This document shows, piece by piece, positions 24,734-38,859 of a stretch of DNA of 44,119 nt (its first letter is position 1; each line of letters opens with the position of its first letter). Origin of the DNA: a virus. Location: the IMG/VR virus record IMGVR_UViG_3300043172_000104, positions 1 to 44,119 of that record, one strand, 5' to 3'. The notes beneath the pieces are model-generated. The model had not been told where the DNA came from. It was given only the letters and a program-made list of their open reading frames with translations, and ran no database searches. A program made the translations under genes and the position numbers.

Positions 24734-24763
24734 TATATACGTCAATTCATCATCTAATGTTCA
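24734..24763 (-). promoter_or_regulatory. Phage promoter-like element, copy 1
   Basis: On the minus strand this reads TGAACA, 18 bp including TTGACG at its right end, then TATATA. It lies 22 bp upstream of the 24712 gene and just after the methyltransferase stop. It has the same spacing and flanking bases as copies 2-5, and would start the last early transcription unit (24712 to 19745). The -35-like and -10-like boxes are not host consensus. Recognition by the phage sigma-like protein is my inference. Confidence 0.72.
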
Positions 24764-24776
24764 GTGCTAAATTAAA

Positions 24777-25490
24777 TTAAAATAATCTATTAGCGGATTC
24801 TTCAATACGTTTAGTTGCTATGTCGAAATACTTATCATCCATTTCAATGCCGATAAACTCCCGCTTCTGATTTACGCAGGCCACGCCCGTTGTCCCTGAT
24901 CCCATTGTAAAGTCAAGCACAGTCTCGCCCTCGTTGGTGTATGTCTTGATTAGGTATTCCATAAGGGCTACTGGTTTTTGGGTGGGGTGGAGTTCGCCGT
25001 TCTGGGACTGAAATTGGATAATGCTTCTTGGGTAGCCAGTCTTCTTTTGAACCGACCCGACTCCAGCCTGCTTGCCGTAAATACTGCCCTTGTTGGTTCT
25101 TGTTATTTTGCGAGGCTTTATATCTTTTAGTCCCTGCGGGTTATAGGTTGGTTGCTTTGCCGAGAACACAACTATGTCCTCGTGCTTATTCATTGGCTTC
25201 CGGTTTGCGTTTAGATGGCCGATAGGCTTACTCTTCTCCCACACCCAACAGTAACTAAACATCTTCATATTAGACGCTATAAGGGTCGTGGTGAATGGCT
25301 GGCTGGCTGTCATAACAATAGCACCGTTAGGCTTGATGACTCGCTTTAAATGCTCCCACATCGGTTCTAGGGGGATTATTGAGTCCCATTTGCAGGCTGT
25401 AGTGCCGTAAGGCGGGTCGGTCATAACCATATCCACCGACCTGTCCGGTATCTTGTTCATTTCTTGTAAGCAATCGCCTTTGTATAACAT
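24777..25490 (-). CDS. DNA N4/N6 methyltransferase, beta-class order
   Basis: A 237-residue enzyme. The catalytic DPPYGT (25-30) comes before the SAM-binding DFTMGSGTTG (193-202), so motif IV precedes motif I, as in beta-class adenine or N4-cytosine methylases. HPTQKP lies before motif I. Without a partner restriction nuclease nearby, it is probably an orphan enzyme that protects phage DNA. The start overlaps the 28-residue membrane peptide stop (TAATG). Confidence 0.9.
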   Translation of the reverse strand: MLYKGDCLQEMNKIPDRSVDMVMTDPPYGTTACKWDSIIPLEPMWEHLKRVIKPNGAIVMTASQPFTTTLIASNMKMFSYCWVWEKSKPIGHLNANRKPMNKHEDIVVFSAKQPTYNPQGLKDIKPRKITRTNKGSIYGKQAGVGSVQKKTGYPRSIIQFQSQNGELHPTQKPVALMEYLIKTYTNEGETVLDFTMGSGTTGVACVNQKREFIGIEMDDKYFDIATKRIEESANRLF

Positions 25491-25576
25491 TAGTTTCTCC
25501 CGTCTATGTAAGTTACAATTAGTATAACAAATAAAACAACAAGCAATACGATAGGAATGTAGAAATTACAATTCAC
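25490..25576 (-). CDS. Predicted 28-aa single-pass membrane peptide
   Basis: A GTG start with an ideal TAAGGAG ribosome site six bases away, inside the end of the helicase gene. The product is MNCNFYIPIVLLVVLFVILI plus TYIDGRN, one transmembrane helix with a short polar tail. TAATG overlaps the methyltransferase start. Strong signals for so short a gene; function unknown. Confidence 0.6.
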   Translation of the reverse strand: MNCNFYIPIVLLVVLFVILIVTYIDGRN

Positions 25577-25585
25577 AATGTCTCC

Positions 25586-26827
25586 TTAAAATGGGTTATG
25601 TTTGATCGGCCTGAAGCTAGAGTAGTCCTCAATAAACTCAACCTCAATAGCACCAGTTCCGCAGTTACGTCCTTTTACTTCAGCTATAGTGTCGGGTCCA
25701 TCCATGCCATACCTAGATGGACGGAACGGAATCAGACATCTATCGAGTGACTGTTCGATCTCACCACAGTCTTGTGCGTCATACAGCGTAGGTGCTCTCT
25801 TGTCTTTGGCTGGCTCCCTATTAGCCTGTATACCTATAACAATAGGAATCTCTAGTTCTACTGCTATATTCTTGACTTCCTTAACCATATAAGCAAGGTC
25901 AAGACGTCTTCCCTCACTCTTCCTGCCTGGATTCATATTATGCAAGTGGTCAACAAATGCAATCTGTATACCCTCCCTTCGATGCAATGATGTCAGTTTT
26001 CTTCGTAGATCAGACGGAGTAAGGCCCGGTGTCTTGTTGAGGTAAATGGGTTTAGTGTATGCCTCGGCTGCTTTCTGGTATAGCTTGTCCTTTGCGTCAG
26101 AAGTGCAATACCCATTAGCTACCGATACAAAGTTCTGGTCGGCTAGATTACAGCATATCCTCTGCATATTCTCCTGGTTAGTAAGCTCACACGAGAACAT
26201 AGCACATGGTATCTCTTCGTAAAACCCAAAATGCAACAAGAAGTCAATCATCAAAGAGGTCTTACCCATACCAGTCGACCCCAAAACGCCTATCAAAGCA
26301 GTAGGCCCGAAGCCCATTATTTGATTATTTAGCTGTGGGAATTGCGTCTTTAGGTGCTTAATACTCTCCGGTTCAAACGACACTTCCACTTCTTTGACGT
26401 GCATTACTCTACTGGAATCCTCACCGTCAAACTCAGTCCTATTACGGAATGCCTTGTCGGCCAACACGGCTTGATCTGAGGCGTTTTCCGTCCCTTTGGT
26501 AATACGGGTTACGTCCTCTGCCAGAAGTACCATCTGAGCCTTCCTGTGCGTTTCTAGGACTATGTCAGCGTAATAGGTTGCTGACGCCGATGATATTACT
26601 GACTCTGCTACCTTAATCGTGTACTCTACGTCGGCATCCTTACCCATCTTATCACGAAGAGTAAGCAGGTCTACTGCCATCCCATCGTCATTTAATGCCA
26701 CGATTGCTGACCATACCGGACGGTCTACAAGTGGGAACATATCAACGGTCAGCTTCTCTGCTACCTCTGCTATACATTCATTGTCGATAATCATACTTCC
26801 TAATACTGCGTGGTGGGCTTCACTCAT
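25586..26827 (-). CDS. Replicative DNA helicase, DnaB-like
   Basis: A 413-residue helicase, started at the ATG that overlaps the upstream stop (26827) rather than an in-frame GTG 12 bp upstream. A DnaB-type N-terminal domain (EAHHAVLGSMIIDNECI) is followed by the RecA core. Walker A GSTGMGKTS (183-191), Walker B-like IAFVDHLHNM and the VIGIQANR motif are clear. It would load on the phage origin and work with the host polymerase, since no phage polymerase is seen. Confidence 0.92.
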   Translation of the reverse strand: MSEAHHAVLGSMIIDNECIAEVAEKLTVDMFPLVDRPVWSAIVALNDDGMAVDLLTLRDKMGKDADVEYTIKVAESVISSASATYYADIVLETHRKAQMVLLAEDVTRITKGTENASDQAVLADKAFRNRTEFDGEDSSRVMHVKEVEVSFEPESIKHLKTQFPQLNNQIMGFGPTALIGVLGSTGMGKTSLMIDFLLHFGFYEEIPCAMFSCELTNQENMQRICCNLADQNFVSVANGYCTSDAKDKLYQKAAEAYTKPIYLNKTPGLTPSDLRRKLTSLHRREGIQIAFVDHLHNMNPGRKSEGRRLDLAYMVKEVKNIAVELEIPIVIGIQANREPAKDKRAPTLYDAQDCGEIEQSLDRCLIPFRPSRYGMDGPDTIAEVKGRNCGTGAIEVEFIEDYSSFRPIKHNPF

Positions 26828-27429
26828 GGCGTACCCCACTGTTCTGACATTGCATCGGCTATGCCTTGATACGTTTTCGATCTTAGTTTCGCTCTATCCT
26901 TAGACGGTGGCAGGTAATGCAGTTTTTGTTGTTCTCGTTTAGGCAATTTAAACATCTCCTCTTTGACGTTATTTGTTTCCGTTAACTTAGGCAATCCCTT
27001 GAGCCAGAGACAGGTAGCCTTACGCTCTGTATGTCCGAACATCCACGGCTGAACAATCTGGTCGTACTTACGTCCCATTATCTCAACTGCATACTTATGT
27101 GGTATTGGATTCTCTACTGCTATCTTGTCAATGCAATTAGTATTTAGTAGGTAATTAAAGAATGAAGCACCGTCTGCCATCTTCTGAAACCTACCCTCCT
27201 GCTTATGAAGCCAATGGACGCCAGAGTTACATAAGTAAGTGCATGGCGGGTGAGCTATCATTAAGTCCCAACCAAGACTAATCACATCGAATACGTCACG
27301 TTTATAGTGCCATTCTGGTTTATCGCCAGAGCAATCCTGTATATCACATGAATAAGCCTCATGCCCTTTAGCCCTGAACGCCTTGCATACTACCTGGCTC
27401 TCTTCGCAAGCTACTAGTATCTTCATCAT
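26824..27429 (-). CDS. DNA C5-cytosine methyltransferase-like protein
   Basis: A 201-residue product. It starts MMKILVACEESQVV, a SAM-site-like opening, with the PPC motif in AHPPCTYLCNSGVHWL (catalytic Cys candidate) and an ENPIPHKY motif that resembles the ENV of Dcm enzymes. It is shorter than full Dcm proteins and lacks a clear target-recognition domain, so specificity is open. Overlaps show coupling to the helicase. Confidence 0.75.
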   Translation of the reverse strand: MMKILVACEESQVVCKAFRAKGHEAYSCDIQDCSGDKPEWHYKRDVFDVISLGWDLMIAHPPCTYLCNSGVHWLHKQEGRFQKMADGASFFNYLLNTNCIDKIAVENPIPHKYAVEIMGRKYDQIVQPWMFGHTERKATCLWLKGLPKLTETNNVKEEMFKLPKREQQKLHYLPPSKDRAKLRSKTYQGIADAMSEQWGTP

Positions 27430-27815
27430 ACCTCCTTCACAAGAACATTAACCGACTCTGCCCACGCCCTAACATCGGGATCAGACAGCAATGTAACGAA
27501 CGATTGATTGCTCTCAATGTCGCTTACAGTCTTCATACTACGCAGCCACGTTCCCATTTGCTTCTCATACTGTGGTATCTTATTTGATGGTGCTTTCATA
27601 CGTCTTGCCTTTGGTATAGATTCATTGCCGAGCCAGTGGTTAATTGCCTTTTTCATTCCTCTGGCTGTTTTACGCCTACTGTCATTGAAAGTAAGCCATG
27701 TCTGCATCTTCTTTAGTTCTACGTCAATATCAATAAGTGGATAATGCTCATCGAATAATGCGTATAGCTCTGGGGTTAATGTCCATTCCGTTCCGTCTTT
27801 TAAGGGGAATATCAT
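27426..27815 (-). CDS. Replication-initiator-like C-terminal domain protein
   Basis: A 129-residue product. I start at the ATG overlapping the upstream stop (27815). DGTEWTLTPELYALFDEHYP, then IDIDVELKKMQTWLTFND, RRKTARGMKKAINHWL matches the end of phage replisome-organizer proteins, where helix pairs contact the helicase. The protein has only this part, so it may act as a helicase-loading adaptor. It is immediately upstream of the methylase and helicase genes. Confidence 0.6.
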   Translation of the reverse strand: MIFPLKDGTEWTLTPELYALFDEHYPLIDIDVELKKMQTWLTFNDSRRKTARGMKKAINHWLGNESIPKARRMKAPSNKIPQYEKQMGTWLRSMKTVSDIESNQSFVTLLSDPDVRAWAESVNVLVKEV

Positions 27816-28246
27816 GTCTTTGCTCCTATCTTGCATAAGGCGGCTGCTTTGAGGTAGTGTTCTGGATCTATTCTCATGGCAAATATCCCGCATACAGCCG
27901 TAAAATCTATTTCTGCTGGCTCCCATGCCACACCGAGTGTCGCCAGTAACCCCTTAACAAATTCACACCCTCCATAGTTGTCGCCTGCCCAATCCCTCCA
28001 CTTCATGGCATTGTCCCAGTTTAGGGAGATTTCGTTGGCTCCAAAATCTAAGCAGCAATGTTCATTTGGCCTTGTTATCCACCCCTTAGGTGACTTAACT
28101 GAAACGTTTGATAAGCACGAAAAACACCCATGAGGCTTTTCTGTGCAATTGACACAACTAAGGCAACACCTATTTTGCAACACCTCCCCCAGCAACCGAT
28201 CTAGCTCTTCGCCCTCTGCTGATAGTATTTGTTTTCTTGTAATCAT
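27812..28246 (-). CDS. Cys-rich hypothetical protein, 144 aa
   Basis: A Cys cluster, NRCCLSCVNCTEKPHGCFSC, lies about 25 residues from the start. The second half (SLNWDNAMKWRDWAGDNYGG, DPEHYLKAAALCKI) recalls the phage ABA-sandwich/DUF2591-like family. Zinc binding by the cluster is likely. Coupled to both neighbours. Confidence 0.55.
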   Translation of the reverse strand: MITRKQILSAEGEELDRLLGEVLQNRCCLSCVNCTEKPHGCFSCLSNVSVKSPKGWITRPNEHCCLDFGANEISLNWDNAMKWRDWAGDNYGGCEFVKGLLATLGVAWEPAEIDFTAVCGIFAMRIDPEHYLKAAALCKIGAKT

Positions 28247-28683
28247 TTCATCTCCTCTAATTTCTTAATCAATCGTTTAGCGTGTGCCGTACCCATTTTG
28301 TACGGGTCAACATTAAGGTCAACACACTTCTGTAATAGCATCTTCTCGACTACCAGGAAGTCACTCTCTCTCCACGTACCCTCTAGTCTGGGCTTGCTGT
28401 ATACCCAATCATATCTATCTGGATACCTCTGCTCAAACCACACCTGAAGCTTTGGTCCGTTGTGCCACTTCCTGTGACAACTTCCACATAATGATATGCC
28501 ATTAAGTAAGTCCCATCTTAGATGATTTAACGTCCTGTACCTTACATGGTGCCACTCTAAGTTGCCTACTGGCCCTTCACATCCGTCATACTGACATTCC
28601 CAATCATCTCTTGTCTTGACTATTGTACGGGCTAGGCTGTCCAGCCATGTCTTCATCGGTCCTGCTTTGAAAGGTTTAGCCAT
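28243..28683 (-). CDS. HNH endonuclease
   Basis: A 146-residue nuclease. CQYDGC begins a treble-clef site. LEWHHVRYRTLNHLRWDLLN holds the HH catalytic pair, and LCGSCHRKWHNGP supplies the CxxC and final His. A helical C-terminus of about 50 residues follows. It lies between the NinB-like gene and the Cys-rich gene, so it may act in recombination or packaging. Confidence 0.88.
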   Translation of the reverse strand: MAKPFKAGPMKTWLDSLARTIVKTRDDWECQYDGCEGPVGNLEWHHVRYRTLNHLRWDLLNGISLCGSCHRKWHNGPKLQVWFEQRYPDRYDWVYSKPRLEGTWRESDFLVVEKMLLQKCVDLNVDPYKMGTAHAKRLIKKLEEMK

Positions 28684-29105
28684 TATTCCACCTCATTAGA
28701 CGGAGGTAATTCGCACTGGAAGCATTCAATGCACCATGCGTTAATGTCTTTAAGGAACTTGGCGTAGTCAGCGAAGGTGTATTCAGATGCCGAGCATGGA
28801 ACTACAGTAGTATGAACTCCCGTCTTTACATCTTTCGACTTGCCAAATAAACCCTTGAGCATCATCTTGACTTCGTTCTTGCCAAAGATATTGCCAGTGA
28901 TCTTAAACTGCTCAACAATGAACCCCAATACAGGCCCATGAAAATACTTCCTCATCTTATCAACATCCCACTTGACCTGCTTGCGGATGATGATCTCATA
29001 GTCACCGTCAGGCAGGGAGCTAATGAGTTCAGTACGCCTCTTTGATGTGGCTTCGTCTATCTGGACTTTGCCGTTTAGTTTGTTGAATTGAAATTTATGA
29101 TTCAT
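28683..29105 (-). CDS. NinB-like recombination protein
   Basis: A 140-residue product from the ATG at 29105 (MNHKFQFNKLNGKVQIDEAT). YEIIIRKQVKWDVDKMRKYF, the later VVPCSASEYTFADYAKFL and INAWCIECFQCELPP follow the pattern of NinB-type proteins, which act with single-strand binding and recombination functions. The adjacent upstream SSB-like gene supports this. Sequence similarity is only by eye. Confidence 0.55.
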   Translation of the reverse strand: MNHKFQFNKLNGKVQIDEATSKRRTELISSLPDGDYEIIIRKQVKWDVDKMRKYFHGPVLGFIVEQFKITGNIFGKNEVKMMLKGLFGKSKDVKTGVHTTVVPCSASEYTFADYAKFLKDINAWCIECFQCELPPSNEVE

Positions 29106-29163
29106 GTTATGCCTGTCTGCCCCCAGCCAGTTACGGCCAGGGGCGTATTCAGAAAGGTTAAAG

Positions 29164-29784
29164 TTAAAACGGTATATCATCCGGTGCATTACTCAAGTCA
29201 ACTTCAGGTTCCGCTGTTGGCATCTGCTCCGCTGGCGCCTGTCCCAACTTAGCCCACTCAGGAGACTTCTTAATCGACTCAATCAACCATCCATAGATGT
29301 TCTCTGGGATGTTCACGCCATGCTCGTCAATGGAGTAGTACAGCGAGGGGTTTTCTACCTTCATCTCAGGCATACCCGCTGGCATCTGCATTACTGCTCC
29401 GATGTACGAGATGGTATCTCCGCCCTCGATTACGGCCTGTACGACATTAAGCATACAAGACCTGCCTATGAGCGTCTTGAAGTCGAACGTCTCGATGTCA
29501 GTGATACCCCATGTAGCGAGGTGTTGCGACAGAGCAGCCTTCTGGAACGTAGAGAACGTATACGTCTTGCCGATTACCTTTGGCCCTTCGTGTTCTACGT
29601 CGTCCTTAGTGTACTTGACACGTAAGGCTGGCACTTCCCACTGGATGCGGAGCTTACGTTGCATCTTCTTAGCGCCTTGAAATGTTACTTCCTGCGTGCC
29701 TAGGTCAACAACGCCATAACATACTGCATTGTGCGTGCCTGCTGGAAACGGGTCTGACTTAGGTTTACTTGCTGGTGCTTTCAT
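29164..29784 (-). CDS. Single-stranded DNA-binding protein-like
   Basis: A 206-residue product. It has an OB-fold-like centre (KLRIQWEVPALRV, VIGKTYTFSTFQKAAL) and a flexible Pro/Ala region. The acidic tip DDIPF is the classic SSB protein-interaction tail. With NinB, HNH and DnaB-like genes nearby it forms the replication-recombination group. Confidence 0.8.
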   Translation of the reverse strand: MKAPASKPKSDPFPAGTHNAVCYGVVDLGTQEVTFQGAKKMQRKLRIQWEVPALRVKYTKDDVEHEGPKVIGKTYTFSTFQKAALSQHLATWGITDIETFDFKTLIGRSCMLNVVQAVIEGGDTISYIGAVMQMPAGMPEMKVENPSLYYSIDEHGVNIPENIYGWLIESIKKSPEWAKLGQAPAEQMPTAEPEVDLSNAPDDIPF

Positions 29785-30008
29785 TTTGTACCTTTCTCAA
29801 TTGGATCATCATTTATTTCAATATACCCAGCAACTACTCCTACTATGGGTATTACGATTCCTACTCCACGCACGACTTCTGCCTTCATTGGCGATTGGAA
29901 GTCACAGTGACACAACTCTACGATGTTATTTACGTATCCATATATCGGTAACACCGCAATCAACACTACTACCAAAACAATTCCAACTATCGCTAGTTTA
30001 TCTCTCAT
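29781..30008 (-). CDS. Two-helix membrane protein, 75 aa
   Basis: TM1 is around residues 5-25 (LAIVGIVLVVVLIAVLPIYG) and TM2 around 48-63 (GVGIVIPIVGVVAGYI). The connecting segment has HCDFQSPMKAEVVRG, a pattern that recurs in phage early membrane proteins of unknown function. Both ends overlap neighbours. It may be a superinfection or lysis-timing factor. Confidence 0.6.
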   Translation of the reverse strand: MRDKLAIVGIVLVVVLIAVLPIYGYVNNIVELCHCDFQSPMKAEVVRGVGIVIPIVGVVAGYIEINDDPIEKGTK

Positions 30009-30106
30009 TTCTCTTTCCTTTCTGAATCAATACATTTACATTCTTGATAAATCTCAGGCATCGGCCTGTATGTTGCTTCTGGGTCTTGGTCTTGTTGGGT
30101 GCTCAT
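30005..30106 (-). CDS. Possible 33-aa protein in an alternative frame
   Basis: ATG at 30106 has a good AGGAG site 8 bases upstream, and its stop overlaps the membrane-protein ATG. It overlaps the gene 30054-30200 by 53 bp in another frame. The product is MSTQQDQDPEATYRPMPEIY plus QECKCIDSERKEK. The signals support translation, but it may serve only to couple the downstream start. Confidence 0.4.
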   Translation of the reverse strand: MSTQQDQDPEATYRPMPEIYQECKCIDSERKEK

Positions 30107-30200
30107 TGCTACACTCCTGGCACATTAAAGTTTCAAAATCATAATCCTCTTGGTCCGTATCAACCATCTTCTCGCATTTATTGCATTGCATTATACTCAT
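30054..30200 (-). CDS. Small zinc-finger-like protein, 48 aa
   Basis: CNKC (residues 6-9) and CQEC (27-30) make a four-Cys site in a 48-residue product, and the tail is Arg/Pro-rich (RPRPRSN). The start overlaps the stop of the previous zinc-ribbon gene. DNA or RNA binding is possible but not shown. Confidence 0.5.
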   Translation of the reverse strand: MSIMQCNKCEKMVDTDQEDYDFETLMCQECSNEHPTRPRPRSNIQADA

Positions 30201-30310
30201 GCTTCAAAGACCCTTTCATATGGGTATTCTTCTTGGCATTGAGGACAATACATTAAGTCTTGATCTTTGCAATCTTCTAGTTGGTGCTCACAGTTTGGGC
30301 ATTCGTACAT
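30197..30310 (-). CDS. Zinc-ribbon protein, 37 aa
   Basis: MYECPNCEHQLEDCKDQDLM then YCPQCQEEY. The CPNC and CPQC knuckles form a minimal zinc ribbon, with a separate Cys at 14. It is the first gene after promoter element 2, 21 bp from the end of its -10-like box. Such small ribbons often modulate host proteins. Confidence 0.6.
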   Translation of the reverse strand: MYECPNCEHQLEDCKDQDLMYCPQCQEEYPYERVFEA

Positions 30311-30330
30311 AATATCCTACCTTTCTATTA

Positions 30331-30360
30331 TATATACGTCAATTCAATATCAAATGTTCA
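30331..30360 (-). promoter_or_regulatory. Phage promoter-like element, copy 2
   Basis: On the minus strand TGAACA, 18 bp (ending in TTGACG), TATATA, then ATAGAAAGG. It is nearly identical to copy 1 around both boxes. It is immediately after the stop of the 30361-30612 gene and 21 bp before the 30310 gene, so it would start the SSB-to-methyltransferase unit. Confidence 0.72.
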
Positions 30361-30612
30361 CTAGTAAAAATCTTTTTTTATCTTTACCTTACGTTTCTTG
30401 AATGCCTCGTGCATCCTGTTTACATCATCCTGCGTCTTAGCCTGCTTAAACTCACGCTTATCTAACTCCTTCCAGATGGCTAACCACTCCAAGAAGTCAG
30501 GCTCATAGCCCATGTCGAAGTCTACCTTGAGTTCTCGCAGCTTCTTCGTTGAAACGTCTTTGATGTCGGTCTTGCCGTCTAGGATGGCTTGGTGTAGTTC
30601 TGAGCGAGTCAT
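30361..30612 (-). CDS. Hypothetical basic protein, 83 aa
   Basis: I start at the ATG overlapping the upstream stop (30612). A highly charged helical product, including IKDVSTKKLRELKVDFDMGY and KKRKVKIKKDFY at the end. The last gene of the 33130-30361 unit. Not recognised. Confidence 0.55.
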   Translation of the reverse strand: MTRSELHQAILDGKTDIKDVSTKKLRELKVDFDMGYEPDFLEWLAIWKELDKREFKQAKTQDDVNRMHEAFKKRKVKIKKDFY

Positions 30613-30854
30613 AATGGCTCCATTTCTAGTTTGTACGCATCGCAGAACTGCATGTACGTTAGCCTTTTCCATCCATTCCACAGCTTCTTATGTGGAGGAA
30701 CCCATTTTACAGGAAGAAGGCATTTTACTGGACGCTCTTCTTCTGGTGCAAATTCAATCCATCTAGTGGATTTTGCATTCCTAGCTGCCCTACTATAATT
30801 TTCAGTCGTGGCTAGAAATGGCTTCATCCTGTCGTACATCTCGTAGGTAGTCAT
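30609..30854 (-). CDS. Hypothetical protein, 81 aa
   Basis: Contains RWIEFAPEEERPVKCLLP and WVPPHKKLWNGWKRLTYM, unusually rich in Trp and Pro. Gene overlaps at both ends. Not recognised. Confidence 0.55.
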   Translation of the reverse strand: MTTYEMYDRMKPFLATTENYSRAARNAKSTRWIEFAPEEERPVKCLLPVKWVPPHKKLWNGWKRLTYMQFCDAYKLEMEPL

Positions 30855-31048
30855 AATACCTCCACGCTAATGTTATCAATACCCTTAATATCCACCCAGT
30901 GATCGTCAATGTCCATTGATGTACCGCCTGGTAGATTCTCTAATGCAGTCTCGATTGCCTTACGACATACTTGGTCTTCTACTGACGAGCAGATGGCGTC
31001 TTCAATTTCCATCGAAACGTCAAAGCATATGTTATATCTGTGTATCAT
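30851..31048 (-). CDS. Hypothetical protein, 65 aa
   Basis: MIHRYNICFDVSMEIEDAIC then an acidic segment with DIDDHWVDIKGIDNIS. The alternating strand pattern and four-base overlaps support a real small protein, but no family is evident. Confidence 0.55.
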   Translation of the reverse strand: MIHRYNICFDVSMEIEDAICSSVEDQVCRKAIETALENLPGGTSMDIDDHWVDIKGIDNISVEVL

Positions 31049-31287
31049 CTTCGTCCACCCTTCTGGCTTACTCTATCGCTTACGTTACGTCTTAGCCATT
31101 CATCAACTACATTGCCGCTACGTTTACCCCTGAATGAGCTATTGACATCACGAGAACGGTATACATCTCCGCCATTTTCACCCTTCCAGAACCACGCTAT
31201 TCGACGTTCTGTCTTTGTTTGATACTCACATCCGGTTATAGTTAATACTGCTACGATGATTGCTGCGATTAGTGTTAGCTTCTTCAT
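31045..31287 (-). CDS. Small lipoprotein, 80 aa
   Basis: Started at ATG 31287 after GAAAGG, not the in-frame codon 15 bp upstream. Signal MKKLTLIAAIIVAVLTITGC ends in the lipobox ITGC (Cys20). The mature part is basic (RRIAWFWKGENGGDVYRSRD). Early-block lipoproteins in phages often act in superinfection exclusion or adsorption blocking. A spanin role is also possible. Confidence 0.6.
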   Translation of the reverse strand: MKKLTLIAAIIVAVLTITGCEYQTKTERRIAWFWKGENGGDVYRSRDVNSSFRGKRSGNVVDEWLRRNVSDRVSQKGGRR

Positions 31288-31288
31288 T

Positions 31289-31471
31289 TTATTGCCTTTC
31301 AAGTAGTTCTAATTTTTGTTCATGTGCGTATTGTTTAATTTTACGTGCCAGATACAATGGAGAACTTCGTATGATAGATGTTATTTCGTGACCTATATTC
31401 TCTTTTTCTTTCCTAGTAGCCCTCAGTCTTTCTGATTCACAGGCACGCTGGAATCTTGGGTCTATATTCAT
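31289..31471 (-). CDS. Hypothetical protein, 60 aa, with MNIDPRF start
   Basis: Begins MNIDPRFQRACESERLRATR, followed by a basic helical tail. The N-terminal seven residues match the gene at 40757-40972, which is otherwise different. Overlaps the upstream gene by four bases. Unknown function. Confidence 0.55.
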   Translation of the reverse strand: MNIDPRFQRACESERLRATRKEKENIGHEITSIIRSSPLYLARKIKQYAHEQKLELLERQ

Positions 31472-31707
31472 TTTAAATCTCCTTTAATATATACGTTATC
31501 TTCTGTCCACAATTCATTTAACTCTTCAATCTCAATGTTATTCTCGATCTCATGGAGCAAGCCTTGATTGTAGGCTATTTCCTGAACTATCTCTAGCCTC
31601 TTGTCCATTGGTGCGTCTATTAGGTCGGCCAGTTCGTCACGAAGCACGACAATAGAGATACTTAGGTTTACTCGCTGGGTTGTTAGGTTTATTAGTTTAG
31701 TGTTCAT
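31468..31707 (-). CDS. Hypothetical coiled protein, 79 aa
   Basis: Helical with heptad-like Leu/Ile (LRDELADLIDAPMDKRLEIV, LHEIENNIEIEELNELW). Overlaps both neighbours by four bases. Likely a small dimer, with no recognised domain. Confidence 0.55.
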   Translation of the reverse strand: MNTKLINLTTQRVNLSISIVVLRDELADLIDAPMDKRLEIVQEIAYNQGLLHEIENNIEIEELNELWTEDNVYIKGDLK

Positions 31708-31892
31708 TGTATTCCTTTCAGTCTATTGTATATCTTTTCAGCGACTTTATAACCATCTCCATAAGTGTCCATATTCTCGTAGTCACTAACCTTATTTAAC
31801 ACCCACTTAAGCAACGCATACGGTGTATCTGCATCACATTCGCTACAGTCGTGGCACATAAAGAATTCACATGGGTTCTTTTCTTTACTCAT
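31704..31892 (-). CDS. Hypothetical Cys-containing protein, 62 aa
   Basis: CEFFMCHDCSECDADTPYAL has four cysteines in a possible metal site. The remainder is helical (KVAEKIYNRLKGIQ). Coupled by four-base overlaps to the lytic enzyme gene upstream and the coiled protein downstream. Confidence 0.55.
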   Translation of the reverse strand: MSKEKNPCEFFMCHDCSECDADTPYALLKWVLNKVSDYENMDTYGDGYKVAEKIYNRLKGIQ

Positions 31893-32359
31893 TTCGCTCG
31901 ATCCTCCATAATATCCATTACATCATTACCATATTCAATAGTAGAATCCTTTGTATATCCCTTGGGTCCACCATTCCAGCACCTGGCCTTGTCGAAGTCA
32001 CTCATGTCCTTACAGTAATGCTCAAGGAATATCTCGCACATATCACGGCTTTTGACTCTGTCGTACCTGTCTTGGTAGGTGTAATAGTCGTACCCAAGTA
32101 TCCTGTTCACATCCCTAACCATGATTTTCCATAGCTGGTATGCACCGATTGCTTTGTATACCTTAGTTTCTTCGTCAAAGTCACCACGAGCCTGTGAGTC
32201 GCATTTAGACTCTTTCCACTCAATAGCATCCATTAAGGCGTCAAGTCCACTGTCTGGCGTTACGGGAGCTTGTACGGGATTACGGAGGTTACATACGCCA
32301 ACAAATATCCCAATTGCTACTAATGTTACTATCAATACTTCTGGTAGGGTTAGTTTCAT
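31889..32359 (-). CDS. Membrane-anchored lytic transglycosylase-like endolysin
   Basis: A 156-residue protein. Residues 5-23 (LPEVLIVTLVAIGIFVGVC) form a weak, Gly-containing N-terminal hydrophobic segment, as in signal-anchor-release endolysins. Then come AIEWKESKCD (Glu50 candidate catalytic), IGAYQLWK and ARCWNGGPKGY, the order of SLT/goose-lysozyme-like domains. It would cut peptidoglycan after release from the membrane. Its place in the middle of the early operon, 12.5 kb from the holin-like gene, is unusual. A virion-independent, non-lysis role is possible. Confidence 0.72.
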   Translation of the reverse strand: MKLTLPEVLIVTLVAIGIFVGVCNLRNPVQAPVTPDSGLDALMDAIEWKESKCDSQARGDFDEETKVYKAIGAYQLWKIMVRDVNRILGYDYYTYQDRYDRVKSRDMCEIFLEHYCKDMSDFDKARCWNGGPKGYTKDSTIEYGNDVMDIMEDRAK

Positions 32360-32880
32360 TTTTTACTCCTCTGCATTGTTGCTTCCATCTGGCGGATATT
32401 CTTGAAAAAGTCGGGGTTAGACTCTGTCCAGATGTTGATACACTTGCCATCGTAATCTAAAAGCTGGATACACTCACCAATTAGCCTAACCTGTATCTTT
32501 GCCTCACTAGGATGATAATTGCTTTCCATCTCAAACTCCGTTACATCCTCCTGCATGGCGGTGAGGTCGTCGAAGATGTTGCCTAGGACGGTAGATGGGA
32601 TGCCAGTGCCACAAACGATTTCATCGGTATCACCAATACCATCAATATCATCGGCATCACAGCAGACTGTATGAATACAAGCGTCACTTACCCTAGAAAG
32701 CCTGCCTGTGCCGAATTTCTTCATAGCCATAGCTGAGCCTGAGTTAACGCTGTATCCATAATCCCCATGCCTCAGCACAGGCTTATTCTCGCCCTCAAGC
32801 TTAACCTCAAGCTCCTTCTTATTAGCCATCAATGCTTCTATATCCCGACCTACTTGTTCTATTTGTGCTTTCGTACTCAT
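32356..32880 (-). CDS. Hypothetical protein, 174 aa
   Basis: Start at ATG 32880 (MSTKAQIEQVGRDIEALMAN) after AAAGG, dropping a spurious upstream extension. An N-terminal coiled coil leads to a region with several Cys/His (ACIHTVCCDADDIDGIG) and an acidic middle. The C-terminus has IQLLDYDGKCINIWTESNP. No family recognised. Confidence 0.6.
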   Translation of the reverse strand: MSTKAQIEQVGRDIEALMANKKELEVKLEGENKPVLRHGDYGYSVNSGSAMAMKKFGTGRLSRVSDACIHTVCCDADDIDGIGDTDEIVCGTGIPSTVLGNIFDDLTAMQEDVTEFEMESNYHPSEAKIQVRLIGECIQLLDYDGKCINIWTESNPDFFKNIRQMEATMQRSKK

Positions 32881-32935
32881 TATAAAACCTTTCTTACTAT
32901 ACAATATATCATTAGCCATGTTAATCCGAAGAACA

Positions 32936-33130
32936 TTACTTAGCCCAATCCTCAAGAGCATTCTCAACAGCAATACCGAAGCATCTAGTACGCTTGCCCG
33001 TCATGGGGATAAATCCATCCCTGCTATATACGCATTCAATGCCAGTTGCTTCCGATACTGAGTCACATACGTTGCTGATTACTACGTCAGATGGGATGCT
33101 TAGTCGTTTTGTGATGTCTTGTACTGTCAT
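32936..33130 (-). CDS. Hypothetical protein, 64 aa
   Basis: Start at ATG 33130 after GAAAGGAAACGA, the first gene behind promoter element 3. MTVQDITKRLSIPSDVVISN looks like a small helix-turn-helix opening, with strands around IECVYSRDGFIPM. Possibly regulatory, but unproven. Confidence 0.55.
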   Translation of the reverse strand: MTVQDITKRLSIPSDVVISNVCDSVSEATGIECVYSRDGFIPMTGKRTRCFGIAVENALEDWAK

Positions 33131-33167
33131 TTCGTTTCCTTTCAAATAGTTTTAGTTTCTTACCTCT

Positions 33168-33197
33168 AACATACGTCATATTAGATATGGATGTTCA
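33168..33197 (-). promoter_or_regulatory. Phage promoter-like element, copy 3
   Basis: Minus strand TGAACA, 18 bp (ending ATGACG), TATGTT, then AGAGGTAAGA. The 10 bases after the -10-like box are the same as in copy 4. It lies about 38 bp upstream of the 33130 gene and would start the 33130-30361 unit. Confidence 0.7.
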
Positions 33198-33205
33198 GTG
33201 GTTTA

Positions 33206-33415
33206 TTATTTTCCTTCAAGAAATTCTATAGGCTCATCGTCTCCGACCATCTTTCTATGCTCAAGCTGTACTTTACATCCAGCTATGGTCTTGCCGTATA
33301 CATTAGCTTGGGCCATTAAGTCGGCTGGACGAACATTGCCTTTAATAGCCGACATGTGCTGCTCTAGCATGATTTTCCGGTACTCTGTCATGTTTTCTGG
33401 GATATTATTTTTCAT
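33206..33415 (-). CDS. Hypothetical protein, 69 aa
   Basis: MKNNIPENMTEYRKIMLEQH and a helical body ending PIEFLEGK. It starts 11 bp inside the end of the preceding gene. Length and charge fit a small phage regulator or accessory protein, but no motif is present. Confidence 0.55.
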   Translation of the reverse strand: MKNNIPENMTEYRKIMLEQHMSAIKGNVRPADLMAQANVYGKTIAGCKVQLEHRKMVGDDEPIEFLEGK

Positions 33416-33968
33416 TGTTCTGTTCCTTAAAATAACGTTTCATTTGTAGTTCAAGCCGTTTGGCTTCCATTAGTGATTGTGGGATGTCTTTTGCACTTAA
33501 ATCGCTATATTGAGTTATAACTTGCCCTATGTAACCGTCGCTCAATTCGGCTCTTGCCTTAACTCCCAGTTTATACCTTATGGCCTTATGCCGGGGGTCG
33601 TCTTTATGTTTGCGATAGTATTCATTGCTGTAGGCGTTAAGTTTATCTCTATTATTTGATCTATACTTTTTAAGGTAATCTTTGCGTTTTACTTTATTGC
33701 AGCTTTTATTCCGATGCTCTCTATTTCTTTCTGATATTTTTTCTTTGTTTTTTTCCCTATAAGCTTTTGCTCTGGCCGAGACTTTCTCTTTGTTCTTTTC
33801 TCTATAGGCTTTTTCTTTAGCTTCGATTTCTTCTTTGTTGGCTGTTCTATATGCTTTTTGGTATTCCCTTAGTCGTTTACAATAACTAGGGTTTTTCATT
33901 CGCTCTTTATGGGCCGATCTAAGCTTTTCTTTCCTTCGTTCTTTCTTCTCTTCGTCTGTCAATGCCAT
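33405..33968 (-). CDS. Highly charged repeat protein, 187 aa
   Basis: Start at ATG 33968 (MALTDEEKKERRKEKLRSAH), since the longer frame upstream runs through the promoter region. It carries Lys/Glu repeats with AYREKNKEK twice and AYRTANKEE once, a pattern like the linker arms of phage HNH or VSR-type nucleases. The nuclease domain itself is absent, and the end is an unrelated helix (KDIPQSLMEAKRLELQMKRY). It is the first gene of the leftward early block. Confidence 0.6.
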   Translation of the reverse strand: MALTDEEKKERRKEKLRSAHKERMKNPSYCKRLREYQKAYRTANKEEIEAKEKAYREKNKEKVSARAKAYREKNKEKISERNREHRNKSCNKVKRKDYLKKYRSNNRDKLNAYSNEYYRKHKDDPRHKAIRYKLGVKARAELSDGYIGQVITQYSDLSAKDIPQSLMEAKRLELQMKRYFKEQNNEK

Positions 33969-33996
33969 GTTATTCCTTTCGATTACTCTTACCTCT

Positions 33997-34026
33997 AACA
34001 TACGACCAATCAGCCGTCCATGTTCA
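33997..34026 (-). promoter_or_regulatory. Phage promoter-like element, copy 4
   Basis: Minus strand TGAACA, 18 bp (ending GGTCG), TATGTT, then AGAGGTAAGA. It drives the 33968 gene in the leftward direction. It lies 35 bp from the host-type promoter at 34061, which points rightward, so this spacer is a divergent control region. Confidence 0.7.
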
Positions 34027-34060
34027 TTGTAAAATAAAAATAAATAAATTATTATTATGC

Positions 34061-34089
34061 TTGACAAGAACGCCAATAGAGTGTATAGT
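34061..34089 (+). promoter_or_regulatory. Strong host sigma70-type promoter
   Basis: TTGACA, spacer of exactly 17 bp, TATAGT. The gene start at 34126 is 36 bp further on. The same GTGTATAGT -10 context recurs in the minus-strand promoter at 42536-42563. This should be active in the unmodified host, making the sigma-like gene immediate early. Confidence 0.8.
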
Positions 34090-34125
34090 ATAAATGACAA
34101 CACTAACTTAATGAAAGGTAACACA

Positions 34126-34623
34126 ATGAGAAAGTACGAAGAAGTATCCAATCTAATGTATTCAATAGCCCACCGCATCAAACTTAATACGGAATCGGCA
34201 CATGACATGGTTCAGGACGCTTGGATCAAGGGTTCACTGCATGGATGTGAGGACCACCAGCTATCAAGGACCATAACTAACGCCATGTTAGACGCCAGAC
34301 GAGCCAGGTCGGGGCGTGTTGGCTCCGTGAGGCTAACTACGGAAGTAGACACCGTATCACTAAGTGACATTAGCAATGACAAGCTAGACGCACTGGCATA
34401 TATAGACCCTAGCAGTACAGAAACTACCGATTTAGTCGATAAATTGCTTGAAAACCTCGATTTCACTGAACATTTGGTCGTGAGATGTCGTATATATAGT
34501 GGAATGACATACCTCAAAATAGCAGAAGAGTGGGGTATGAGCAGTCAATCTACAGTATTAAACGTCTTTAATCGGGCAATAACTAAAATGAAAGAATCTA
34601 AACTAGCGAGGGAATTAGTGTGA
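34126..34623 (+). CDS. Sigma-70-family (ECF-sized) sigma-like factor
   Basis: A 165-residue product, from ATG 34126 behind AAAGGTAAC. The N-terminal segment (about 12-60, AHRIKLNTESAHDMVQDAWI and AMLDARRAR) has the DmvQDaw pattern of sigma region 2. The C-terminal part (about 105-157, LDFTEHLVVRCRIYSGMTYL, then KIAEEWGMSSQSTVLNVFNR) is a region-4 helix-turn-helix. Size fits ECF sigma factors. Its expression from a host-type promoter, and phage-specific elements beside and inside it, suggest a middle-gene switch. It could instead be a degenerate factor that binds only RNA polymerase. Confidence 0.75.
   Translation: MRKYEEVSNLMYSIAHRIKLNTESAHDMVQDAWIKGSLHGCEDHQLSRTITNAMLDARRARSGRVGSVRLTTEVDTVSLSDISNDKLDALAYIDPSSTETTDLVDKLLENLDFTEHLVVRCRIYSGMTYLKIAEEWGMSSQSTVLNVFNRAITKMKESKLARELV
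34467..34496 (+). promoter_or_regulatory. Phage promoter-like element, copy 5, inside the sigma-like gene
   Basis: TGAACA, 18 bp (ending GTCG), TATATATAGT, on the plus strand inside codons 114-124 of the sigma-like gene. Same spacing as the four intergenic copies. It points towards the two smaller sigma-like genes, the tRNA and the second structural cassette. Chance cannot be excluded because the bases also encode protein. Confidence 0.6.
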
Positions 34624-34865
34624 AAACAGACAAACTATACAAAGGATTAACCCCAACTCAACGAAGAAGGGTAGAAATGAGAGCCGATGGCATGACATGG
34701 CGTGAGATTGCCGAGGTAGGTAGCGTGACGGTGTCCGCAATCCAGAGTTCTTTAGAGTTAGCTGAAATAAAAATAAAAAAGAATCTAGGCATTACGCCCA
34801 GAAAATCAACTATTTCAGATAAAAATACTAATGTTAACCAAAATCATGCCATTAAGGCACCGTAG
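34620..34865 (+). CDS. Region-4-like HTH protein, 81 aa
   Basis: GTG start overlapping the sigma-like stop (GTGA). LTPTQRRRVEMRADGMTWRE then IAEVGSVTVSAIQSSLELAE is a sigma-4/LuxR-type helix-turn-helix, followed by a Lys/Asn tail. Only the DNA-binding half of a sigma factor is present. It may modulate or replace region 4 of the neighbouring factor. An independent repressor is an alternative. Confidence 0.62.
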   Translation: MKTDKLYKGLTPTQRRRVEMRADGMTWREIAEVGSVTVSAIQSSLELAEIKIKKNLGITPRKSTISDKNTNVNQNHAIKAP

Positions 34866-34886: not shown

Positions 34887-35189
34887 ATGGACATTGACAA
34901 GACAAGACAACTAATAAGGCAAGCCATATCTGGTTTACGTGTTCCTCCTGATTTAATGGAGGACGCCTATCAAGAAGGATTTGTAGCCTTCCTGGAAAAG
35001 AAGGACATCAGAGCCGTAATTCGTAAGTGGCTTACTGAAGAAAAGGCATTTAAGAATAGGCTTATTGATCCCGATGGCAGTTTCCTACTAGAAGAGCAAG
35101 AAAGCCATGATAAAAGGCTAGCTTCTGGTGACGTAGGGACTTATACCGAGACTATCGGTGATGATATAGAAGTTTACAACAAGATATAA
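34887..35189 (+). CDS. Region-2-like small sigma fragment, 100 aa
   Basis: RQLIRQAISGLRVPPDLMED then AYQEGFVAFLEKKDIRAVIR resembles sigma region 2.1-2.2, with an ED-x-YQEGF core like the DLVQEGF of sigma factors, and no region 4. The C-terminal half is charged. It is the third of three sigma-like genes, 21 bp after the previous one. A core-binding or anti-sigma-like partner role is possible. Confidence 0.5.
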   Translation: MDIDKTRQLIRQAISGLRVPPDLMEDAYQEGFVAFLEKKDIRAVIRKWLTEEKAFKNRLIDPDGSFLLEEQESHDKRLASGDVGTYTETIGDDIEVYNKI

Positions 35190-35240
35190 AGATGTCGCAG
35201 CCTCTTTCTAGAATTGGCTCGGCATAATATGATATAACAT

Positions 35241-35290
35241 ACCTCCCACGCAAGGACCGGAAATATCCAGTCGGCGTATCTTTGGGAGGT
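35241..35290 (+). ncRNA. Long hairpin just upstream of the tRNA
   Basis: ACCTCCC (35241-35247) pairs perfectly with GGGAGGT (35284-35290). Inside, ACGC (35248-35251) can pair with GCGT (35274-35277). The right arm ends five bases before the tRNA. It has no T-arm, so it is not a second tRNA. It may guide tRNA processing or be part of a larger RNA. Confidence 0.5.
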
Positions 35291-35295
35291 AACAT

Positions 35296-35366
35296 TCCAT
35301 GCTAGTGTAATGGTAGCACGCTTGGCTGTTAACCAAGTTGTTTAGGTTCGAGTCCTAGGCGTGGAA
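35296..35366 (+). tRNA. tRNA-Asn (anticodon GTT)
   Basis: A full cloverleaf: acceptor TCCATGC with GCGTGGA (one G-U pair), D-stem GTGT/GCAC with a GG-containing loop, anticodon stem CTTGG/CCAAG with loop CTGTTAA, 4-base variable loop and T-arm TTAGG-TTCGAGT-CCTAG, then A as discriminator. CCA is not encoded. Starting with U like E. coli tRNA-Asn supports the call. It lies in a non-coding stretch after the sigma-like genes. Confidence 0.93.
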
Positions 35367-35640
35367 TTAAAGACATCTTATTCAGAGTGGAACTTGTCCC
35401 ATTAGGGCTGTGAGCAGACAAGGATAGCCAATAGGAGCTTAGAACAATCCTATGTATTACAAGTCTTATCGGGTCGTATCCTCACTGCTGCGATAAGCCG
35501 TCGCTTAATTCTATGGGCATCATGGCGAGCATAGAATGGGGTTGTAAGTCTTATACCGCCTTTAAACGGAATAAACATACATTTCCTCCTAGAATCACTA
35601 GGGGGAAGTGCGCTTACCCACCATTACCGGAATAAAAATA
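35366..35640 (+). ncRNA. Structured non-coding region after the tRNA
   Basis: No gene fits here, yet it is packed with hairpins. CTTATCG/CGATAAG (35465-35471, 35491-35497), ATTCTATG/CATAGAAT (35508-35515, 35530-35537) and CCTCCTAG/CTAGGGGG (35585-35592, 35598-35605) are the strongest. An imperfect stem joins TCC-ATT-GG near 35397 to AATAGGA near 35430. AAGTCTTAT is repeated at 35461 and 35546, as is CGGAATAAA at 35567 and 35629. It may be a large phage RNA of the kind known beside phage tRNAs. Processing fragments are an alternative. Confidence 0.5.
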
Positions 35641-35971: not shown

Positions 35972-36289
35972 ATGGCATATAAATTTGATAAGAAAATAGA
36001 ACGCAAGAGAGTCAGAGATGGCGACGGCTGGCGTATGAGTTACAAACTAGACGTAACAGTCACAGACGATACAGACCCGACATTCGCACCTTTTATTAAA
36101 AGCGTAAAGGGCTACCCTGTTGATACAGACACTACTATCGAAATGGGTGCGAGTATTGTTGCTAAGATCAATACTGAGCTTGCAAAGAGAAAAATTACGG
36201 CAGATGCCTTGCTTGTGGAAGAAGAAGCCCTTGGTGGTGCTATTTTAGATAAAATTGACGCTTATCTTACAACTAATGTGGGGATATAA
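35972..36289 (+). CDS. Hypothetical structural-type protein, 105 aa
   Basis: An N-terminal charged strand segment (KKIERKRVRDGDGWRMSYKL), a beta-like DVTVTDDTDPTFAPF run and a helical end (INTELAKRKITADALL). The first gene of the second structural cassette, with an AAGGAATAAACA leader and a one-base overlap with the next gene. Not recognised. Confidence 0.55.
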   Translation: MAYKFDKKIERKRVRDGDGWRMSYKLDVTVTDDTDPTFAPFIKSVKGYPVDTDTTIEMGASIVAKINTELAKRKITADALLVEEEALGGAILDKIDAYLTTNVGI

Positions 36290-36885
36290 TGGGAACACCC
36301 GTAAAAACGACCAGTATAGAAGTTATTGATTCATGGGCTGTTATTTCAGCAGGCACTATGAGGATTGGAGACGATACTTCTGGTGGCACTGATATATCCG
36401 AAAGTTACTCAACTCTCTTGTATATTGATGTAGCACCTGTTGAGGCAGTAGCTCAAGTAGGTATGGAAATCACGGTAGAGGTTTCATATGCCGACCAGTT
36501 CTGGGTAGAGTATATCACATTCACGAGCAACGCTATTACAGCTAGCACAACAACCTTAGACGCACAGGCTACAGCACCAACGACCACACTATCAGTAGCT
36601 TTAGCAGCAGACAGCATCGGCGATAGATTGCTCATTAAAGACGGCACTATAGCTGATTCAGAACTGGTAACAGTAGCAGCTACAGCAGCGGGAGAGTATA
36701 CTATTACAGATGTAACTACTGCCACACACGCTAATGGCACTTCAATATTCGGTGGAGGGCAGCAGTGGGCGGTAGAAATCCCCCTAGCAGCAGCTAAAGT
36801 TAGGGTACTTTACAATAATGTCGATACTGACTGCGATATGGCCTCAAGCACGAGGATGTCTATTGTAACTAATCTGAACGCATAA
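36289..36885 (+). CDS. Putative virion protein, 198 aa
   Basis: Thr/Ala/Val-rich beta protein with TLLYIDVAPVEAVAQVGMEI, then a Ser/Thr stretch (AITASTTTLDAQATAPTTTL) that looks like a fibre-type linker, and a final strand region. It lies between a small gene and a lectin-like gene, so an adsorption-complex component is likely. Confidence 0.55.
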   Translation: MGTPVKTTSIEVIDSWAVISAGTMRIGDDTSGGTDISESYSTLLYIDVAPVEAVAQVGMEITVEVSYADQFWVEYITFTSNAITASTTTLDAQATAPTTTLSVALAADSIGDRLLIKDGTIADSELVTVAATAAGEYTITDVTTATHANGTSIFGGGQQWAVEIPLAAAKVRVLYNNVDTDCDMASSTRMSIVTNLNA

Positions 36886-36886
36886 T

Positions 36887-37672
36887 ATGAGCAACCTAAT
36901 AAAACCACCATTTGGACGTAAGCCTAAATCGACTCCGAGTCGCAAGGGCTTAGTCCTCGAATTTCCGATGCTTGGTTCTGGAGACTTGAGCGACTACTCC
37001 CTCAACGGCAACCACGGCACAAATAACGGTGCTACATGGGTGGCAGGTGATAATGGTCCTGCTTTGTCGTTTGATGGAACTACATTAAGTGCAGTAGCCC
37101 TGAATAAGGCTGTAGTTTTAAGAAGTAACTTCACAATAATTATGAAACTGAAGTGGAATGCCGTTGGTTCTAGACTTTTCACTAGTAGCGACTACGATGG
37201 AAATCAAAACCCATATGGATTTCAAGTGTTTGAGTTCGCGGACGAGATACATACTAAACTTCAAACTGGTGAGTTTTCTTCGGAATCTAAATCCATTTCT
37301 TCGCCAACTCGTACACTATCAAAGGCGGTGACATTAGCGTTTGTCAAAATCGGTACGCTAGGTTCTTGGTACTGGGATGGGGAATTGCTTGGTACAGATA
37401 ACACATTCGGCGTTAACAGTTATTTACCGATTGATCGTCTTTCTGGATTTTCAGATGGAAGTGGTTTTGATCTCGATGGTTCAATACATAACGCATGTGT
37501 TTACGACCGAGCGTTATCAGCAGAAGAAATCAAACAACAATATGATAACCCGTGGGTAGCATGGCAAAAAGACGACATAGCACTATTGGCAGCAACGCAG
37601 GGAGTGCCGCCAGCGACGGGATTTGAACCTTGGTTTGCAGTAAATAACAACAACTTAATAGGAGTAGCGTAA
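36887..37672 (+). CDS. LamG / concanavalin-A-like lectin domain protein
   Basis: A 261-residue protein. GLVLEFPMLGSGDLSDYSLN with GNHGTNNGATW, FTIIMKLKW, GSWYWDGELLGT and the close HNACVYDRALSAEEIKQQYD are the defining pieces of LamG-like folds, ending NPWVAW. The family binds sugars. It probably recognises host surface glycans. It overlaps the next gene by one base. Confidence 0.8.
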   Translation: MSNLIKPPFGRKPKSTPSRKGLVLEFPMLGSGDLSDYSLNGNHGTNNGATWVAGDNGPALSFDGTTLSAVALNKAVVLRSNFTIIMKLKWNAVGSRLFTSSDYDGNQNPYGFQVFEFADEIHTKLQTGEFSSESKSISSPTRTLSKAVTLAFVKIGTLGSWYWDGELLGTDNTFGVNSYLPIDRLSGFSDGSGFDLDGSIHNACVYDRALSAEEIKQQYDNPWVAWQKDDIALLAATQGVPPATGFEPWFAVNNNNLIGVA

Positions 37673-38859
37673 TGAGCTACAAAATAAATACAGCAGTTAC
37701 TGGGTTTGGCATTGGTCACTTCATTAACACGACTACTGGTGCGGAGGTTATTACTGGAACTCCCGTATGTAAGCGTACAATAGACGGAACTGGTGGTACT
37801 TGTGCTAATGCTGCGAGCTATAATACTGCTGGTAAAGCATGGGAGATCGACCTGGCTGCTGGGGATACTAACGGCACTAATATCATATTCTCTTTCTCCT
37901 TAACTGGCAGTATACCGATTAGCTATACGACGCAGACGGTAACAAGGCTAGTAAGCGAACTCAATGACGCAATAACAGCACCTACGGCATCGGAAAATAG
38001 AACAGAGATGGACGACAACAGCACAAAACTTGCTGCAATAGTGGAAGATACCGCAGAAATAGGTGTTGATGGCGTAGGGCTTAGTAATCTTGGCGGTATG
38101 TCTGCTGCGATGAAGACGGAGGTACAGACCGAAGCTAATGATGCTCTAGTCGCCCAAAACCTAGACCATCTATTAAAAGTAAGTACTGGAGTGGCTGCGG
38201 ACGGCAATTTAGCCCCATTCGTAGTAGATGAAACGGTTATGGCCCATCTTATGTCAACATCCGCAGCGGTAGCTACGGGATACAATGCTACTACTGACTC
38301 ATTCCAGGCTATTGGGGCCGACACTGACGGTATTATATCTACATTAGGCACTAACGGTGCAGGATTATCTAACATTAATCTACCAAACCAGACAATGGAT
38401 ATAACTGGCAGCTTAAGCGGTTCGGTAGGAAGTGTGACAGACCCAGTAGAGACGGATAGTACCAGTAGAACGGCAAGCAAAGCAGATGTATCCGCCATAC
38501 CGAACACTACAGAATTTGAACTAAGAACTCTACCTAAGGATGATTATGTCGTAGTAGGAGACACAATAGCTGGCGTCACAACCACTGCCAATCTAACAAC
38601 CAACAACGATAAAACAGGTTACACCCTGTCGGCTTCTGGCATAGACTCTATTTTCGCCGAAGAGGTAGACAATGACGGGAATGCAATATCACTATCTGGA
38701 GCAATGAAACTAATACTATCAGTACTCACTGGTAACTCTGATGGAGGCGGGACGACTACGCTGACATTTAAAGACCTAACGACTGGACTAAGTAATAGGC
38801 TATCGCTGACAGCAAGTGTTGACGGTGATAGGTCTGCAATAACAAGGGACGCTACATAA
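37672..38859 (+). CDS. Putative tail fibre / adsorption protein, 395 aa
   Basis: An N-terminal beta domain (FGIGHFINTTTGAEVITG, EIDLAAGDTNGTNIIFSFSL) resembles the small domain found at the start of many phage adsorption proteins. It is followed by a helical region with Ala/Asp/Glu repeats (TEVQTEANDALVAQNLDHLL), then a Thr-rich fibre end. No enzyme motif. It overlaps the next gene by one base. Confidence 0.6.
   Translation: MSYKINTAVTGFGIGHFINTTTGAEVITGTPVCKRTIDGTGGTCANAASYNTAGKAWEIDLAAGDTNGTNIIFSFSLTGSIPISYTTQTVTRLVSELNDAITAPTASENRTEMDDNSTKLAAIVEDTAEIGVDGVGLSNLGGMSAAMKTEVQTEANDALVAQNLDHLLKVSTGVAADGNLAPFVVDETVMAHLMSTSAAVATGYNATTDSFQAIGADTDGIISTLGTNGAGLSNINLPNQTMDITGSLSGSVGSVTDPVETDSTSRTASKADVSAIPNTTEFELRTLPKDDYVVVGDTIAGVTTTANLTTNNDKTGYTLSASGIDSIFAEEVDNDGNAISLSGAMKLILSVLTGNSDGGGTTTLTFKDLTTGLSNRLSLTASVDGDRSAITRDAT

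Follow-up and report, generated by a model that had tools for sequence, protein, structure and literature searches.

SPO1-type cascades rely on phage sigma factors for the stepwise redirection of the host polymerase; their sigma factors and promoters are of types other than those discussed here. According to published descriptions, ECF sigma factors recognise a -35 box with AAC and a -10 box with CGT, and this pair is a hallmark of ECF promoters (PMC8103513). For SigW of B. subtilis the promoter consensus is TGAAAC-N16,17-CGTA, which one analysis extends to CGTAT (PMC2375139). Autoregulation is likewise a hallmark of ECF sigma factors, although it is not defining in the later classification (PMC8103513). 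In the podophages phiEco32 and 7-11, the motif of the phage sigma factor consists of one extended -10 box (TAATGTATA; TGTGATGTTATA) with a complete absence of a recognisable -35 box (PMC5333181). Here, we describe a viral genome in which a two-box element occurs in five copies together with a gene for an ECF-type sigma factor. From their sequence and placement we consider, with a probability of about 0.7, that all five copies function as promoters (-35 TGAAC, 17 bp, -10 CGTAT) read by the host core RNA polymerase in combination with the ECF-type sigma factor encoded at 34126.

The viral record and its five-copy element

The window, meaning the whole stretch of DNA that was analysed, is the complete IMG/VR virus record IMGVR_UViG_3300043172_000104 (44,119 bp). 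It carries podophage-type portal, capsid, and terminase genes, whose named relatives are only distant. The ends of the record repeat imperfectly, the last ~550 bp resembling the first ~450 bp, and comparison of 1-480 with 43565-44119 reveals two near-identical stretches around a diverged middle; the probable explanation is circular permutation or, alternatively, a terminal repeat that varies among strains. Late genes run rightward, from 43172 through the ends to ~19776 and again at 35972-40517. The leftward block, from 34026 to ~19948, contains small genes together with genes for a DnaB-like helicase, a DNA methyltransferase, an HNH endonuclease, a NinB-like protein, and a metallophosphoesterase. 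The Shine-Dalgarno sequence at start codons across the window is often GAAAGGA, which suggests a host whose 16S rRNA ends in CCUCCUUUC, an ending found in many Firmicutes and Alphaproteobacteria. A tRNA-Asn gene (anticodon GTT; 35295-35367, plus strand) is located between the sigma operon and the gene string that starts at 35972, and inverted arms (TACCTCCCA/TGGGAGGTA) flank it in 35240-35291. An Rfam int-alpA RNA (RF02996; 42602-42668, plus strand; 42.5 bits against a gathering value of 35.8) immediately precedes an endonuclease VII-like gene, and a further hairpin, GTTACT-GCAGG-AGTAAC, abuts the start of that gene.

The initial annotation had described a repeated promoter element in which TGAACA is followed after 18 bp by TATATA or TATGTT. 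The five sites and their strands proved exact, and 5 occurrences compare with 0.04 expected from 200 dinucleotide shuffles, none of which gave more than 1. The -10 box, which had been assigned to TATATA/TATGTT, was misplaced, as this hexamer varies among the copies whereas CGTAT, overlapping its left end, is invariant in 5/5. The element is thus, as read from its bases, TGAAC-N17-CGTA(T), and has the AAC...CGT form typical of promoters for ECF (group IV) sigma factors, because the invariant bases in the alignment of the five copies include the AAC and CGT of ECF promoters and because the whole is a near-match to the SigW consensus.

Four copies are on the minus strand. P1 (24737-24763; -35 TGAACAT at 24757-24763, -10 CGTAT at 24737-24741) heads a unit that comprises a small gene at 24711 and the metallophosphoesterase gene and continues to ~19948, with the ATG at 24711 lying 25 bp from the box. 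P2 (30334-30360; -35 TGAACAT at 30354-30360, -10 CGTAT at 30334-30338) stands at the head of the unit that contains the genes for the NinB-like protein, the HNH endonuclease, DnaB, and the DNA methyltransferase (ATG at 30311, 22 bp from the box). The unit headed by P3 (33171-33197; -35 TGAACAT at 33191-33197, -10 CGTAT at 33171-33175) consists of small genes from 33130 to 30361 (ATG at 33130, 40 bp from the box), and that headed by P4 (34000-34026; -35 TGAACAT at 34020-34026, -10 CGTAT at 34000-34004) extends from 33968 to 33206 (ATG at 33968, 31 bp from the box). The earlier observation that the minus-strand copies stand at the heads of gene strings and divide the block into four units is borne out; P1-P4 are intergenic, and each reads toward a Shine-Dalgarno sequence and an ATG. 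All four are co-directional with the genes, are separated by 22-40 bp from a downstream ATG that has a GAAAGG-type Shine-Dalgarno sequence, and fall wholly within non-coding gaps of the leftward block, in 4 of its 10 gaps. On the analysis's own gene list, a random 30-mer falls wholly within a leftward-block gap at 9.4% of positions, and the corresponding value for all four copies is ~8e-5.

The fifth copy, P5 (34467-34493, plus strand; -35 TGAACAT at 34467-34473, -10 CGTAT at 34489-34493), reads toward the genes at 34620 and 34887 and, unlike the intergenic P1-P4, is located inside the coding sequence of the sigma gene (34126-34623). Synonymous recoding of this gene (100,000 trials, phage codon usage) recreated TGAACAT-N15-CGTAT in 1.7% of trials; when the element was extended through TATATA, the figure was 0.12%. 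As recoding so seldom recreates the boxes, P5 is probably a functional promoter, with less certainty than P1-P4. No copy of the element was found upstream of the structural genes anywhere in the window, so that late transcription would need another signal, and the upstream regions of these genes yielded no common late-promoter motif.

The 10-base core TGAAC-N17-CGTAT has 5 matches, whereas 200 dinucleotide-preserving shuffles gave 0.08 on average and never more than 1; these statistics, like the others given for the element, were computed on a motif chosen from the same five sites. Five copies match TGAACAT-N15-CGTAT perfectly, no copy differs at one position, and two differ at two positions; at up to two mismatches ~4 are expected in all, and the two-mismatch copies are within chance. 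The spacing is specific, in that GAAC-N17-CGTA has 10 matches against 1.0 expected while N15, N16, N18, and N19 give a background of 1-3 each; the four further matches at N17 (a duplicate at 21/43582, 3372, 22241, and 22357) fall in coding sequence and were left out of the count. The spacer also keeps T at 1, T at 9, A at 11, and G at 15 of the 16 positions after TGAACA. P1 (24734) and P2 (30331) are near-duplicates over ~50 bp, and the copies are consequently not fully independent. P3 (33168) and P4 (33997) have common sequence 3' of the box, and their spacers differ almost completely; because the boxes hold where the spacers differ, the boxes appear to be under constraint, and copying alone would be insufficient to account for them. 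Unbiased dyad counting places the family among the top word pairs, alongside low-complexity and coding pairs, which means that it is not unique by dyad counting alone.

The sigma factor operon and searches for relatives

The gene at 34126-34623 (plus strand), which starts 100 bp from P4, encodes a protein of 165 residues (P0001) that is, judged by its domain content, an ECF-type sigma factor. The protein has regions 2 and 4 without region 3, joined by a linker of ~44 residues, and thereby agrees with the definition of ECF factors as having regions 2 and 4 only with a linker below 50 residues. Pfam Sigma70_r2 matches residues 4-62 with 25.9 bits (cut-off 24), and Sigma70_r4 matches residues 107-156 with 19.5 bits, below its cut-off of 24.1. 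The ECF superfamily model TIGR02937 matches over the full length with 43.3 bits against a cut-off of 42.9; in a six-frame search the same model scored 40.6 bits, just below that cut-off. A single-sequence structure model is all-helical with a pLDDT of 48.7, too low to trust, and the top Foldseek matches of this poor model, which are ECF sigma factors at E values of at least 0.03, are not counted as evidence.

Two further genes follow downstream. The first (34620-34865, plus strand; P0002) encodes a region-4-only sigma-like protein of 81 residues (Pfam Sigma70_r4_2, 27 bits; cut-off 25.7), and the second (34887-35189, plus strand; P0003) encodes a possible region-2-only protein of 100 residues. 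The evidence for the latter is weak, consisting of region-2 alignments to the models TIGR02943 (E 0.08) and PRK11924 (E 0.15); the Pfam search saw no match, and its structure model is too poor to use. No anti-sigma model matched in these two genes, which look sigma-like or of no known family; an anti-sigma gene co-transcribed with its sigma factor is another hallmark of the ECF group, though not a defining one.

Upstream of the start of the sigma gene there is no copy of the element, and thus no sign there of the autoregulation common among ECF factors; instead there is a host sigma70-type promoter of the operon, TTGACA-17-TATAGT (34061-34089, plus strand), which matches at 11/12 positions. 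No site in the 20 kb scanned matches better; the scan overall is at chance level (50 sigma70-type promoters found against 44.8 expected). A second host-type promoter, TTGACT-16-TATAGT (42536-42563, minus strand; 10/12), is located upstream of the small minus-strand genes from 42367 to 40757.

Searches for relatives of the 34126 sigma factor returned none in IMG/VR, phage records, or plasmids, including a tblastn search of its protein against 50,697 phage records that gave no match at E 0.1; relatives of the DnaB were likewise absent from IMG/VR, and across the sigma, DnaB, and motif searches no relative was found that carries both the early region and the motif. Two relatives (L006 and L007, from source metagenomes IMG 3300033388 and 3300037245) are 88-90% identical in portal and capsid and cover the structural region only, and no comparable motif set was seen in three other phages whose structural proteins are distantly related. 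A more distant relative, with a metallophosphoesterase at 54%, has no sigma factor and no motif copy on its 32-kb fragment. This fragment carries at 4135-4160 (plus strand) a single weak look-alike, AGAAGG-N17-CGTATAT, just upstream of the gene after the methyltransferase and thus in the same relative place as P1; it may have diverged from a homologous promoter or may have arisen by chance.

The sequence TGAACATN13TGACGTATATA matched nothing in IMG/VR. In searches with the extended motif TGAACATN7TRAN3GWCGTATRT, all IMG/VR contigs together yielded 1 match and ~85,000 prokaryote genomes yielded 5, the same number as this window alone; as the motif was derived from the five copies in the window, only its rarity elsewhere is informative. 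The single IMG/VR match lies inside an antisense coding frame and was taken as chance. The five matches in prokaryote genomes are scattered singles, four of them in coding frames and one promoter-like. This last one, on a Chloroflexi contig (7866-7894, minus strand), is a perfect copy located 15-25 bp before a Shine-Dalgarno sequence and an ATG, and looks like a real cellular ECF promoter of the same form.

Recognition of the element

The proposal of the initial annotation that the element belongs to a phage sigma factor stands in its essentials, as the boxes and their spacing are ECF-like and an ECF-type sigma gene adjoins them, with the -10 box moved to CGTA(T). The extent of the regulon needs to be narrowed, in that it appears limited to the leftward (middle) block and perhaps the sigma operon, the structural genes being without a copy. 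On entry of the phage, the host sigma70-type holoenzyme would transcribe the sigma operon from the TTGACA-17-TATAGT promoter at 34061, a site that is seen in the sequence and whose activity is presumed. The 34126 sigma factor would then bind the core polymerase and start transcription at P1-P4, and with it expression of the leftward replication/recombination block in four units; we infer the switching on of P1-P4 by this factor because of their position, orientation, and box type. P5 may in addition boost the downstream region-4-like gene (34620) and possibly the region-2-like gene (34887), which is the weakest step of the scheme. A two-step cascade, in which the ECF sigma factor and SigW-like promoters serve the replication block and P5 turns on a split sigma4 and sigma2 pair that drives the late genes, seems unlikely.

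Each of the competing explanations draws on some feature of the element. That the boxes have the general cellular ECF form, and that one of the five genome-wide matches of the extended motif, on the Chloroflexi contig, lies just upstream of a Shine-Dalgarno sequence and an ATG in a promoter-like position, would be expected if a host ECF (stress) sigma factor read these promoters and the phage sigma-like genes did something else. Against this stand the complete ECF-type sigma gene adjoining the promoters and the uniformity of the copies, which is far greater than expected of borrowed host sites, and recognition by a host factor is improbable. Reading the sites as ordinary sigma70-type promoters, with -35 TGAACA, 18 bp, and -10 TATATA or TATGTT, has in its favour that each hexamer matches the sigma70 consensus at 4/6, that the spacing is acceptable, and that the DNA 3' of the CG is AT-rich. 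It is very unlikely all the same, as TGAACA rather than TTGACA is kept in 5/5 copies, yet the phage has a TTGACA-17-TATAGT promoter, and as it is the right-hand hexamer that varies and CGTAT that is invariant.

The elements might also be operator sites of a phage DNA-binding regulator and not promoters at all, a notion encouraged by inverted arms AACAT...ATGTT in P3 and P4 and by the location of one copy inside a gene. P1, P2, and P5 have no second arm, however, every copy is asymmetric and points in the direction of the genes downstream, and no other promoter was seen for the units headed by copies, which together make operators a slim prospect. Equally slight is the chance that the recogniser is a SigO-RsoA-like split sigma factor formed by the 34620 (region 4) and 34887 (region 2) proteins: the former is region-4-only and above the Pfam cut-off, the latter shows a weak region-2 alignment to two sigma models, and P5 reads into both genes, but the region-2 assignment of 34887 is not significant and the 34126 protein alone is a complete ECF sigma factor. 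Promoters read by the 34126 sigma factor appear to fit the evidence better than any rival, and this reading is supported. If so, the phage probably redirects the host RNA polymerase to its own replication genes, which would explain the switching on of a ~14 kb block with very few other promoter candidates.

Comparison with described sigma factor systems

The scheme proposed for this phage shares several features with phiEco32 and 7-11. These podophages also encode an ECF-type sigma factor (PMC7881722), and, as is proposed here, their early genes have host-type promoters while later blocks depend on a small number of well-conserved promoters of the phage sigma factor (PMC4331800). They differ in that their motif is found at middle and late genes, whereas here the element has two boxes, TGAAC and CGTAT, and the late genes are without a copy. 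A -35 box is plainly recognisable in this record, TGAACAT being invariant in 5/5, and no homologous sigma factor was detected by tblastn at E 0.1 among the 50,697 phage records.

The adjacent 34620 and 34887 genes recall the SigO-RsoA system of B. subtilis, in which adjacent genes also carry separate sigma4 and sigma2 parts (PMC8103513). Here, in contrast, the sigma2 part is weakly supported and a complete ECF sigma factor is present in the same operon. The closest likeness in promoter form is to the SigW promoters of B. subtilis, whose boxes and spacing are almost identical, TGAAAC-N16,17-CGTA(T) (PMC2375139). SigW governs a cellular stress regulon, however, whereas the present element would define a phage regulon, with TGAACAT as its -35 sequence and no anti-sigma factor seen.

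Phage sigma regulons and ECF-type phage sigma factors are thus known; what appears to be new, as judged at the sequence level, is the combination of two-box promoters of the cellular form with a phage ECF sigma factor. No description of a two-box switch for viral sigma factors was found in open-licence full text, and an earlier report may exist. If the assignment is true, the phage would possess a compact sigma-promoter pair of 165 residues and five sites with ten invariant core bases. The ECF sigma factors of phiEco32 and 7-11 have been treated as outliers, and a two-box phage regulon, if true, would extend the use of the standard cellular form to viruses.
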